NCBI GenBank assembly: GCA_903888625.1
Contig: CAISUD010000035.1
Coordinates: 1-42,959, forward strand
Length of the DNA: 42,959 nt
Reading direction: 5' to 3'
DNA from: an uncultured bacterium
Lineage (GTDB): Bacteria; Patescibacteriota; Minisyncoccia; Phycocordibacterales; UBA9973
Positions 2,825 to 13,975 of this stretch are shown one piece after another. The notes beneath the pieces were generated by a model. The model had not been told where the DNA came from and did not search any database. It worked only from the letters and a program-made list of their open reading frames with translations. Each line of letters opens with the position of its first letter. Position 1 is the stretch's first letter. Both the position numbers and the translations under genes were made by a program.

Positions 2825-3829
2825 TTATTTCTCCAAAATATTATACCGATCCAAAATTGCCTCAAACATAAATGGTACTACAATAGTTGCATCGGATTCA
2901 ATGACAAACATCGGAGTTTCTTTGGTAAGTTTATCCCAAGTAATTTTTTCATTTGGAGTTGCCCCAGAATAAGATCCATACGAAGTTGTTGAATCTGAAA
3001 TCTGACAAAAATATCCCCAAGGGCGAACTGGCTTTTTCAAATCATATTTTATCGAAGGCACGACGCAAATCGGAAAGTCTCCAGAAATTCCTCCACCGAT
3101 TTGAAAGAATCCAAGCCCTGGTCCATCTTTCACTTCACCTGCAAGTTCAGTATATCTGTCATATAAGTACATCATATATTCCACGCCAGTCTTCATCACC
3201 GTTGGACTCACAACGCCAGCTTTGCAATATCCAGCGAAAATATTTCCTAAAGTTGAATCTTCCCAACCTGGCACAACTATCGGTAAATTTTTCTTCGCTG
3301 CTTCGAGTAACCAACAATGTTCTGGATTCCCTTCATACAATCCTTTCAATTCATCGGACAAAAGAACTTGATAAAAATATTCATGTGGAAAATATCTCTC
3401 GCCTTTTGCTTCGGCATCTTTCCATCTTTTTAAGATGATAGGTTCAACTACACGAAAAGCTTCTTCTTCTGGAATAGAAGTATCCGTCACCCGGCGTTCA
3501 CCACGATTTAAAATATCTTCATCATCTTGTTTGGTAAAATATCGGTAATCTGGATAATCTTTATAACTATTATGTGCTACAAGTCTAAAAACTGATTCTT
3601 CCAAATTCGCTCCTGTGCAAGAAATCCCGTGAATTTTTTCATTTTTAATCATTGGCGCAAGAGTAATCCCCATTTGTGCGGAAGACATCGCTCCGCCCAT
3701 CGCTAAAAACATTTTTCCACCATCATCTAAATGTTTTTTATATGCCAAAGTGGCATCTTTCATTTGACGAGCATTAAAGTTAAAGAATAATTTTTGAAAC
3801 AAACCTAACATACTATTTTTGTTTTGCAT
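2825..3829 (-). CDS. Deoxyhypusine synthase-like protein lacking the catalytic lysine
   Basis: This 334-residue protein has the deoxyhypusine synthase (DHS) fold across its length: an N-terminal NAD-site stretch (MGGAMSSAQMG, then ISCTGANLEES), a GGGISGDFPICV loop and a C-terminal SDSTTSYGSYSGATPNE/ESDATIVVPF region like the end of eukaryotic DHS. Known DHS enzymes carry the spermidine-accepting lysine in GGGxxKH; here the matching position is glycine (GGGISGD). Bacteria have no eIF5A, and bacterial relatives often act on small polyamines. The reaction is therefore unclear: a polyamine-related transferase or an NAD-binding protein without DHS chemistry. The start at 3829 lies six nt after a -10 box and is shared with the divergent promoter of secG. 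Confidence 0.85.
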   Translation of the reverse strand: MQNKNSMLGLFQKLFFNFNARQMKDATLAYKKHLDDGGKMFLAMGGAMSSAQMGITLAPMIKNEKIHGISCTGANLEESVFRLVAHNSYKDYPDYRYFTKQDDEDILNRGERRVTDTSIPEEEAFRVVEPIILKRWKDAEAKGERYFPHEYFYQVLLSDELKGLYEGNPEHCWLLEAAKKNLPIVVPGWEDSTLGNIFAGYCKAGVVSPTVMKTGVEYMMYLYDRYTELAGEVKDGPGLGFFQIGGGISGDFPICVVPSIKYDLKKPVRPWGYFCQISDSTTSYGSYSGATPNEKITWDKLTKETPMFVIESDATIVVPFMFEAILDRYNILEK

Positions 3830-11705: not shown

Positions 11706-11734
11706 TTGACTTCCTATAGAGAAAAGCATAAACT
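11706..11734 (+). promoter_or_regulatory. Promoter of the cobalamin riboswitch operon (TTGACT-N17-TAAACT)
   Basis: -35 TTGACT (11706-11711), 17 nt, -10 TAAACT (11729-11734). Transcription from about 11741 would include the complete riboswitch and give a 250-nt leader before the first gene at 11993, by far the longest mRNA leader in the window. Confidence 0.65.
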
Positions 11735-11760
11735 AAAGTAGTTGATTTAACAATTATAAA

Positions 11761-11882
11761 AATGATTGGGGAAACTGGTTTAATTCCAGTACAGTGCCGC
11801 TACGGTAAGCTCCGATTCGCCAATTTGGTGGATGGAGACAAGTCCGAATGCCAATAATTCAAAATATTTGTCCCGAGCAGGA
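11761..11882 (+). ncRNA. Cobalamin (vitamin B12) riboswitch, short class-II-like
   Basis: Positions 11768-11807 align without gaps to the cobalamin riboswitch core: GGGAA, CTGG/CCAG stem, then CAGTGCCGCTACGGTAA for the CxGxxCCGCxACxGTAA block. The aptamer closes with ATTGG (11765-11769) pairing to CCAAT (11851-11855), preceded by the conserved CCGAATGCC. Next comes a small hairpin, TCC/GGA (11871-11873 with 11880-11882) with loop CGAGCA, in the place of the L13 kissing partner. The lack of large peripheral arms and the CCGAATGCC and GAGCA motifs resemble the compact class-II type. Family membership is seen from motifs; ligand form (methyl/hydroxo- or adenosyl-cobalamin) is not determined. Confidence 0.88.
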
Positions 11883-11922
11883 TTTGTTTAAGTTTAATTC
11901 TGCCCGCGCAGAATTTTTTTTA
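11877..11922 (+). terminator. Riboswitch expression platform: terminator and competing antiterminator
   Basis: AATTCTGC (11896-11903) pairs with GCAGAATT (11908-11915) around CCGC and runs into a T-tract: an intrinsic terminator. The same AATTCTGC can instead pair with GCAGGATT (11877-11884). That upstream strand overlaps the GGA side of the L13-like hairpin. Ligand-stabilised L13 should therefore block the antiterminator and let the terminator form, turning the operon off with B12. The logic is inferred from base pairing. Confidence 0.82.
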
Positions 11923-11992
11923 TTTATCCCGTTAAAAAATTCAACAAACATAAATAAAAAACAATATTATTATTAATAAAATTTTTAATGGG

Positions 11993-12418
11993 ATGTCAAA
12001 AACAAAAATAAAAAAATTAATACCAATAATCCTTTTGATGATAATCTGTGGCTATTTAATTTCCACTTATTATAAATCTCCAGTCAAAACTTCTACCCAG
12101 ATTTTACCTATTAATACAGCAAATAATGCAATACAAACTACTCTCCTCTTGAGAGGGGTAAAATTAGAAAGTTCTATTTCACAGAAAACAAGCGTTTATG
12201 ATTTTATGCAAAAATTAGAACAAGAAAATAAAATAACTTTTCAAGCAAAAAATTATATTGGAATGGGAGAATTTATTGAAAGTATTAATGGAATAAAAAA
12301 TACCAATACGAATAATTGGATTTATTATATTAATAATGTAAAAGCAAATGTCGGAGTGTCGAATTATCAAATTAATCCGGGAGATGTCGTCTCCTGGAAA
12401 TATGAAGCTAATAATTAA
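11993..12418 (+). CDS. Membrane-anchored transcobalamin-like C-terminal domain (DUF4430) protein
   Basis: A 141-residue protein with an N-terminal membrane segment (about 10-27) and one extracytoplasmic beta domain of the DUF4430/transcobalamin-like C-terminal type: SVYDFMQKLEQENKITF, YIGMGEFIESINGIKN, NNWIYYINNVKAN and PGDVVSWKYE. In intrinsic factor and transcobalamin this domain closes over the B12 molecule held by a helical barrel. It is the first gene after the cobalamin riboswitch (11761-11922), which strongly suggests a B12-binding role at the cell surface. No lipobox is present. The start ATG is at 11993; the AT-rich leader carries ATTATTAATAA and no Shine-Dalgarno motif. The next gene, with the same domain plus a barrel, begins 27 nt on. 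Confidence 0.85.
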   Translation: MSKTKIKKLIPIILLMIICGYLISTYYKSPVKTSTQILPINTANNAIQTTLLLRGVKLESSISQKTSVYDFMQKLEQENKITFQAKNYIGMGEFIESINGIKNTNTNNWIYYINNVKANVGVSNYQINPGDVVSWKYEANN

Positions 12419-12445: not shown

Positions 12446-13975
12446 ATGAAACTAAAAAAGTTCTTGAGAATTTTGTTTTTAATAATCTTTTTATTTAGTG
12501 TTAAATTTAATAGTTTGCACGCACAAGTGTTTCCAGATAGTTCAGATACTTCTACTTCAACCGACCCAAACCCAGTTACCATCCATTTAATTATTGAAAA
12601 TAATTCAGGACATATCTATGACAACTCTAATTTAAATGTTAATGCTTGTGACAGTGACAATCCAAGCTCTGGCAATTTAACTGTCACTGCTTATTGTGCA
12701 GTTTTGCAATCAAATCTACCAAGCGATTGGAATCGTGCTTGGGCACCAGGAATTTTTCTAAATTCAATCAATGGTATTTCTGGCTTTACTACACAAGATT
12801 CAAATGGAACAGATGTCTACCATTATTGGAGTTGGGTATTACAAAGAGACCACAGTATTTCTGACGCTTTAGGTTTGAATGAATATCAATTGCAAACTGG
12901 CGACATAATAACTTTAACTTTTATCGACCCAGTAAACCCACCTCCTCCACCACCAGAATCACATATAGGTGGTGGAAATTATGTCGCTCCTAAAATTACT
13001 TTTGACCTACAAAAGGCGACCAACTTTTTAATTTCTAAACAAAAAACTAATGGCTCTTTTGAGGTAGATTTATATACCGATTGGACAGCTATAGCTCTAG
13101 CTTCAAATCAAAATACACCAAAAACAAATCTTGATCAATTAATAAAATATTTTTCTACTGAAACATTTTCTAGCACTCTTTTGACTGATTACGAAAGACA
13201 TGCAATAGCATTGATGTCACTTAATTTAAATCCATATAATCTAAATGGAGAAAATTTTATTAAAAAAATAATTGATAATTTTGATGGCACCCAGTTTGGA
13301 GATAAGGAAAAAGATAATGATGATATTTTTGCTCTGATTGTATTACAAAATGCAGGCTATACTGAGAATGATAAAATCATTTCTAATACTATAAATTTTA
13401 TTCTTTCAAAACAACAAAAAGATGGTTCTTGGGATGAAAATACGGATTTAACTGGAGCCGGGATTGAAGCCTTGTCCACGTTCCAAAATGACGAAAATGT
13501 AAAAAAAGCCCTAGAGAATGCCGAGAATTATTTAAAAAAGAATCAAAAGACAGATGGCAGTTGGGGAAATGTTTCTTCAACCGCTTGGGCAGAAGAAGGA
13601 TTAAAATCTCTTGATGAAAAAGTTAGTGATGCTACTTTAGAATATTTAGGAGAAAATCAAGATACAGATGGTGGGATAAAAGACACTGACACCAATAATA
13701 AACTATGGGAAACAGCTTACGTCGTCACTTCTCTATCAACCAAAACTTGGACAGAAATAATGCAAAAATTTGAAGCTCCAATTGAAAACTCTTCTAAAAA
13801 TATTTTAACTCCTGAACTAAAAAAAATAACCCTACCAGCCAAAAAAAGTATTGCCGAAGATAAAATACTTTTACCAAAGATAGAAGCAACTAGCCAAGAC
13901 CAAACACAAAATTTGCCGGTAGAAAAACCTAGTTTTTGGAGGAGGATATTAAATTTCTTTTTAAGTTTTAACTGA
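12446..13975 (+). CDS. Secreted transcobalamin/intrinsic factor-like protein (beta domain plus alpha/alpha barrel)
   Basis: A 509-residue protein with a signal peptide (1-26, ending LHA). Residues about 43-161 form a DUF4430/transcobalamin-C-like beta domain (VTIHLIIEN, NGISGF, YHYWSWVLQRD, LQTGDIITLTF) with two cysteines (69, 84). A hinge with six prolines (165-170) leads to an alpha/alpha barrel at about 182-435 with terpenoid-cyclase-type repeats such as QQKDGSWDEN and QKTDGSWGN. Intrinsic factor/transcobalamin has the same two domains in the reverse order. The tail is charged and ends FWRRILNFFLSFN. Together with the riboswitch and the preceding DUF4430 gene this reads as a B12 scavenging protein. 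An unrelated prenyltransferase-like scaffold is the alternative. It ends in TGA and overlaps the convergent gene by 8 bp. Confidence 0.85.
   Translation: MKLKKFLRILFLIIFLFSVKFNSLHAQVFPDSSDTSTSTDPNPVTIHLIIENNSGHIYDNSNLNVNACDSDNPSSGNLTVTAYCAVLQSNLPSDWNRAWAPGIFLNSINGISGFTTQDSNGTDVYHYWSWVLQRDHSISDALGLNEYQLQTGDIITLTFIDPVNPPPPPPESHIGGGNYVAPKITFDLQKATNFLISKQKTNGSFEVDLYTDWTAIALASNQNTPKTNLDQLIKYFSTETFSSTLLTDYERHAIALMSLNLNPYNLNGENFIKKIIDNFDGTQFGDKEKDNDDIFALIVLQNAGYTENDKIISNTINFILSKQQKDGSWDENTDLTGAGIEALSTFQNDENVKKALENAENYLKKNQKTDGSWGNVSSTAWAEEGLKSLDEKVSDATLEYLGENQDTDGGIKDTDTNNKLWETAYVVTSLSTKTWTEIMQKFEAPIENSSKNILTPELKKITLPAKKSIAEDKILLPKIEATSQDQTQNLPVEKPSFWRRILNFFLSFN

Follow-up and report, generated by a model that had tools for sequence, protein, structure and literature searches.

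The leader preceding the two genes at positions 11993-12418 and 12446-13975 of the window, which is the whole 42,959-nucleotide stretch of DNA analysed here, is very probably (with a probability of about 0.87) a cobalamin-responsive transcriptional OFF switch with a class II aptamer, serving a predicted B12-capture operon. An aptamer match, a P13 hairpin, a pairing between the loops L5 and L13, an antiterminator, a terminator and a fitting gene context—all of them on the forward strand—can be read from the sequence itself and from its comparison with relatives. The mechanism is of a known kind, the leader representing a new example with a notable regulon, unusually well supported by relatives. 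If this reading is true, it would offer a complete base-level model of a class II cobalamin riboswitch operating on a terminator, in a lineage with little-understood regulation.

The aptamer and its presumed ligand

The aptamer, possessing a compact P6 extension, covers positions 11752-11859 and matches the Rfam family AdoCbl-II (RF01689) over the full-length model (1-81) with 37.1 bits, i.e. it clears the gathering threshold of 36.5 only narrowly; with R1, a covariance model derived from the 42 leaders of its own taxonomic family, it scores 88.9 bits. The aptamer, called compact and class-II-like in the initial annotation, is thus an AdoCbl-II aptamer by Rfam, and it is the one riboswitch site matched in the window's genome (0.9 Mb, 97% complete), for which size, gene content and the 16S point to Patescibacteria. 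Its P6 extension consists of a single short hairpin of ~34 nt and there is no large P8-P12 extension, so that it does not belong to class I; as to class IIb, defined by GGAA in J3/4 together with UCU in J6/3, the GGAA is present and the J6/3 segment CCGAAUGCC is without UCU.

The fold is well supported by the 42 family sequences, among which its 23 pairs are 86% paired and 13 of them have changed on both sides, the covariation score being 0.265 vs 0.091 for shuffled data (none of 500 shuffles was as high). Covariation is seen in P3, P4 and P5, the last of these exchanging A-U for U-A between two subtypes, and L5 reads GUGCCGC(U/A)ACGG in all 42 leaders, with a CGAGCAG element located 56-79 nt downstream. 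Several relatives deviate from the compact layout. In a leader from the same genus (L086 1501-1726, genome G091), the P6 extension is interrupted by a long insertion, so that the model matches the aptamer in two parts; the flanks of the insertion look complementary, and the junction may still close. GC-rich hairpins are inserted in the P4 loop of four close relatives (L159, L173, L182, L185), and two leaders (L170, L178) carry an additional hairpin between the aptamer and L13.

Two aptamer subtypes precede orthologous DUF4430 genes, the window type with J6/3 GAAUGCC (AAUG) and a second type with GUCUU in J6/3. The J6/3 of the window type matches, as we presume, that of the env8-type class IIa. 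The presence of GGAA in J3/4 and UCU in J6/3 has been linked to the AdoCbl-selective class IIb, the class IIa preferring MeB12/HyB12 (PMC11260477). Since the window subtype has J6/3 without the UCU motif, the switch could work just as described here and sense a corrinoid other than AdoCbl—methyl- or hydroxocobalamin, or another cobamide—a possibility compatible with the OFF switch, to which we would give even odds. The occurrence of the two J6/3 subtypes ahead of orthologous genes and the junction rule cited above speak for it; on the other side, the aptamer of the window is assigned to AdoCbl-II by Rfam, a response to more than one corrinoid is frequent among cobalamin riboswitches (PMC9600662) and the junction rules are derived from few examples. 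Cobalamin stands here as the presumed ligand, and judging from its junction, the window-type aptamer may prefer another form of it than AdoCbl.

The P13 hairpin and the kissing loop

The P13-L13 hairpin UCC(CGAGCA)GGA is found at positions 11871-11882, with UCC (11871-11873) and GGA (11880-11882) enclosing the hexaloop CGAGCA (11874-11879). The kissing bases UGC of L5 (11795-11797) can pair with GCA of L13 (11877-11879). Both the hairpin and the kissing loop had been proposed in the initial annotation, and both covary in relatives. The stem was followed over 135 loci in a test anchored solely on the loop CGAGCA: pair 1 was formed at 134 of them, pair 2 likewise at 134 and pair 3 at 127. Around the constant loop, pair 1 occurs as C-G, U-A or A-U; for pair 2, the variants are C-G, U-A and G-C.

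With regard to the kissing loop, the L5 and L13 bases change together across the phylum, the combinations being UGC/GCA, UAC/GUA (in L060, L061, L065 and, independently, L085), UCC/GGA (L112, L114, L140, L148) and CCC/GGG (L087). For the middle base of L5 and position 5 of the L13 loop—the L13 loops being located by a motif anchor—126 G/C, 5 C/G and 4 A/U combinations were counted along with 4 discordant ones (Fisher 5e-11, uncorrected for kinship, with changes in at least five lineages). An alternative kissing pair of L5 CC-GC with GC(A)GG, considered by analogy with env8 and the Rfam consensus, was dropped in favour of UGC/GCA within the loop because of the co-changes UAC/GUA, UCC/GGA and CCC/GGG and because the P13 stem enclosing the hexaloop stays constant.

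It should be mentioned that six leaders (L079, L071, L081, L091, L092, L093) have an L5 that reads GUCGCG, which makes a third type; the putative L13 loop is here CGCG(U/A)(C/A)A and the kissing would be CGCG/CGCG. Several leaders of this type are followed by a small membrane protein similar to an ECF S-component.

The terminator and the antiterminator in the window

The sole terminator detected in the leader by the terminator scan is the intrinsic one at positions 11896-11922, composed of AATTCTGC-CCGC-GCAGAATT and a T-run; its stem has 8 bp and its loop is CCGC, the 3' arm GCAGAATT (11908-11915, followed by Ts) being the perfect complement of AATTCTGC (11896-11903). By direct reading, AATTCTGC is a shared strand that can be either the 5' arm of the terminator or the 3' strand of the antiterminator: the segment GCAGGATT at 11877-11884 pairs with it over 8 bp, including one G-U (G11881-U11899), and the pairing is extended across an A/C mismatch by C11874-G11875 with C11905-G11906. 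The complete 5' strand of the antiterminator, CGAGCAGGATT (11874-11884), thus overlaps L13 and the 3' arm of P13, and its duplex with 11896-11906 amounts to -10.7 kcal/mol. All the elements of the alternative pairing of AATTCTGC, with either GCAGAATT or GCAGGATT, could be located as the initial annotation had described them, including the overlap of GCAGGATT with the TCC/GGA hairpin at 11871-11882 and its loop CGAGCA. The antiterminator reaches beyond the 3' arm of P13 and occupies the L13 loop itself with all of the kissing bases; the kissing loop and the antiterminator are therefore mutually exclusive states, both using L13 bases 11877-11879. P13, ending at 11882, and the terminator, starting at 11896, do not overlap, and they coexist in the fold in which P13 is held. 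The L13 loop and the terminator are separated by a spacer of 16 nt, the second shortest observed, which is without the spacer hairpin present in most relatives.

Folding of successive prefixes of the window gave P13 first (-2.7 to -3.7) and its replacement by the antiterminator once position 11903 had been made (-6.9, then -9.5); at full length the two end states were nearly equal, with -13.3 for the antiterminator and -12.1 for P13 together with the terminator. The same was observed for 41 leaders of the family: before the 3' arm of the terminator is present, the free fold beats the P13-held one by ~7 kcal/mol on average, with L13 paired in all 41, and at full length the gap between the two states is ~1.7 kcal/mol, all these values coming from energy models that exclude the kissing loop, the ligand and the speed and kinetics of the polymerase.

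Upstream of the aptamer, a weak candidate for a sigma-70-type promoter, TTGACT - 17 nt - TAAACT (11706-11734; 9 of 12 in a consensus scan), would possibly start the RNA just 5' of the aptamer; the number of sites in the sigma-70-type consensus scan of the leader was no higher than in shuffles.

Conservation among relatives and the level of control

A copy of the AdoCbl-II model was found in 42 of the 147 genomes of the family. Matches to R1 were obtained in 38 of 297 genomes of the order, 39 of 384 of the class and 96 of 380 across the phylum, these three samples partly overlapping genomes already covered. Many of the genomes are fragmented and probably metagenome-derived; it should be noted that the relatives share kinship and that the counts given here are thus of non-independent events.

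An intrinsic terminator is present in all 41 family leaders with enough readable DNA, and in each of them L13 has its complement in the terminator's 5' arm plus loop. The mean of the L13/terminator duplex is -11.6 kcal/mol, compared with -5.3 +/- 0.3 for shuffled partners and with -5.2 for 37 unrelated terminators taken from the same loci (p 9e-12), of which four also pair well with L13. At least four terminator solutions complementary to L13 could be recognized, namely UUCUGC, UCCUCUCGG, CUUCUGCUC and, borne by the loop in L038, UUUUGCUCG; the two outermost U-A pairs of the antiterminator vary among relatives around the conserved core GCAGGA/UUCUGC or its equivalent. Swapping the partners within the family made the pairing only slightly worse (3 of 300 swaps were as good), a weak test owing to the near-invariance of L13 in the family, which called for a phylum-wide one: over the 107 leaders having both parts, own partners averaged -10.8 and swapped ones -10.12 (sd 0.16), with 0 of 1000 swaps as good. 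The strongest covariation comes from other families. Covariation of this pairing among homologous leaders, the check that the initial annotation had named, has thus come out in its favour, the complementarity being held throughout the family and tracking L13 across the phylum.

Sixteen further close relatives were found via the downstream gene and 15 of them show the pairing; the sixteenth, L176, yielded no value, the script having anchored on the copy of L13 inside its terminator. In L176 as well as in L032, the loop and 3' arm of the terminator are CCCGAGCAGGATT and repeat the L13 element exactly, so that the terminator looks like the product of an L13 duplication.

No terminator was detected in about 20 relatives with L13, some of which look translational. 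In four distant relatives without a terminator (L129, L132, L142, L155), a start codon stands a few nucleotides downstream of the P13 AGGA, and the L13 hairpin seems to hide a ribosome-binding site. This raises the question of whether the leader of the window could also be a real riboswitch acting on translation, with P13 or another helix hiding the ribosome-binding site and the hairpin 11896-11915 being incidental. In support of this, the distant terminator-less L129, L142 and L155 start a long reading frame at that very place, and the typical B12 platform has been called translational (PMC11260477). In the window, however, the start codon at 11993 lies 111 nt from P13, past the terminator, and control of translation would not need a terminator whose 5' arm is kept complementary to L13 in all 41 family leaders. 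We regard the translational reading as improbable for the window, for which it was rejected, and have kept it for some of the distant relatives.

Proposed mechanism of the switch

In the mechanism we propose for the transcriptional OFF switch, the L13 hairpin would, without ligand, pair through its 3' half, CGAGCAGGAUU, with the nascent AAUUCUGCC(C)G; this antiterminator would use up the 5' arm of the terminator, and the polymerase would read into the DUF4430 and transcobalamin-like genes. With cobalamin bound, L5 UGC would kiss L13 GCA and so hold the very small P13; the L13 bases being occupied, AAUUCUGC would be free to pair with GCAGAAUU, and transcription would be expected to stop at the U-run. 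The outcome would be decided by whether the ligand-stabilised kissing loop holds P13 while the 5' arm emerges. The competition between kissing loop and antiterminator for one set of L13 bases makes the model readily testable by compensatory mutation.

The OFF sign is predicted from the layout of P13 and the terminator, which have no bases in common and can be present together. The direction claimed in the initial annotation, from ligand to termination, is hence supported by topology and by a mutationally tested precedent of the same logic (PMC10653944). The opposite sign—an ON switch with the ligand-stabilised P13 as the antiterminator—would draw on an identical list of parts, and an activating corrinoid riboswitch of such a kind does exist, namely the A. 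halodurans cobT riboswitch, in which P13 and the terminator share a strand (PMC10653944). That design, however, makes the 3' arm of P13 the 5' arm of the terminator, which is not the case in the window, and closing down B12 capture at times of ample supply fits the target genes; the ON switch, rejected on topology, is therefore considered highly improbable.

Taken alone, the duplex of the window is matched or beaten by 2.6% of mononucleotide shuffles, and the weight of the case therefore rests on the relatives. That the complementarity arose by chance, an ordinary terminator simply lying beside an aptamer with no switching, is hardly credible despite that percentage, since the pairing is kept in 41 of 41 relatives with differing terminator sequences and registers and tracks the L13 variants—comparative data that already contradict chance—and since a comparable terminator arose in 43 of 3000 dinucleotide-shuffled versions of 11860-11930, in no case together with an alternative 7-bp pairing of its 5' arm.

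The regulated genes and the B12 context

The first regulated gene (11993-12418) encodes a protein of 141 aa that has a hydrophobic segment at its N-terminus and a DUF4430 domain (PF14478, E 1.2e-14), and the second one (12446-13975) a secreted or anchored protein of 509 aa consisting of a DUF4430-like beta domain and an alpha/alpha toroid (SQHop_cyclase_C, 1.1e-9). DUF4430 was found in 38 of 40 downstream genes of the family. In the wider set it was present in 50 of 105, and the other targets there cover alpha/alpha toroid proteins, two PduO-type cobalamin adenosyltransferases, ribonucleotide reductases and ECF S-components. Homologues of the second gene occur in 68 of the 147 family genomes, with the riboswitch upstream in 29 of the 30 loci read.

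The profile of the second gene weakly matches gastric intrinsic factor (E 0.005), and PF01122 (Cobalamin_bind) is matched by 9 of 30 of its homologues, the window protein itself not being among them. For its AlphaFold model (mean pLDDT 81.7), the best PDB matches include transcobalamin, haptocorrin and intrinsic factor, and terpene cyclases, sharing the same toroid fold, match it equally well. The genome of the window also encodes a PduO-type cobalamin adenosyltransferase (3.5e-44) and an AdoCbl-dependent RTPR-type ribonucleotide reductase (2e-81, below that model's own cut-off). A B12-capture operon turned off by B12 is the coherent reading of this context, in which we infer the binding of cobalamin by the gene products. 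A search of the open-access literature on DUF4430 in bacterial B12 uptake brought nothing useful.

Among the relatives, cobalamin-type leaders are found upstream of genes with ATP-cone and ribonucleotide reductase domains (L069, L144), which suggests that an alternative ribonucleotide reductase is controlled by B12. The L5 CCC/L13 GGG leader L087 (genome G771) lies directly before a gene for a TonB-dependent receptor, a BtuB-like arrangement unusual for the lineage and possibly a contamination, and in L004 and others the end of a gene for a PduO-type cobalamin adenosyltransferase on the same strand seems, by eye, to be just upstream of the leader. Elsewhere in the window, on the reverse strand, the start of the contig falls within a 16S rRNA gene (1-432), and a deoxyhypusine synthase-like protein is encoded at 2825-3829 of this bacterial genome.

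On balance, the data lean towards a widespread B12-acquisition regulon of class II cobalamin riboswitches in Patescibacteria, in which an interchangeable L13 element, CCCGAGCAGGA, would act as antiterminator strand or ribosome-binding site depending on the lineage, the targets being cobalamin-capturing intrinsic-factor-like proteins (DUF4430 plus alpha/alpha toroid) in cells unable to make B12. No report joining cobalamin riboswitches with Patescibacteria was found in a search of the open-access literature. The regulon link would provide the DUF4430 and toroid surface proteins with a testable function, i.e. cobalamin binding and capture, and it would suggest that some of these streamlined bacteria rely on scavenged B12 for their AdoCbl-dependent ribonucleotide reductase.

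Comparison with known systems

With the AdoCbl-II family (RF01689) the leader shares, besides a score above the gathering threshold, the four-way junction P3-P6, the small P6 extension and the L5-L13 kissing loop; it differs in its L5, one base shorter than the consensus (GCC-GC vs ACCUGC), and many of its close relatives score below the Rfam cut-off. The class IIa riboswitch env8HyCbl resembles it in having a compact class II aptamer with the ligand state read by the L5-L13 kissing loop, but env8 acts on translation (PMC10653944), whereas the window has a terminator. The interest that the initial annotation saw in the terminator, many such aptamers acting on translation, holds in part: the typical platform has indeed been called translational (PMC11260477), yet transcriptional cobalamin riboswitches are common, accounting for 37 of the 38 functional ones in B. 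subtilis (PMC9600662).

As far as the target is concerned, the product of the second gene is predicted to have both folds of the transcobalamin, haptocorrin and intrinsic factor family (PF01122), i.e. the toroid and the DUF4430-like beta domain. Unlike these proteins, it exhibits the reversed domain order, is bacterial and secreted, and has a C-terminal hydrophobic segment, the sequence identity being 11-15%.

The known switch of the same logic is the metE riboswitch from Priestia megaterium, a transcriptional repressor of class I tested by mutation, in the apo form of which the 3' side of P13 pairs with the 5' side of the terminator (PMC10653944). The window differs from it by its class II aptamer, by a P13 of only 3-4 bp, by an antiterminator that also covers the L13 kissing bases, by its targets—DUF4430 and toroid genes instead of metE—and by belonging to a different bacterial phylum; what both would have in common is the antiterminator of the apo state and a kissing loop that stabilises P13, upon which the terminator forms.
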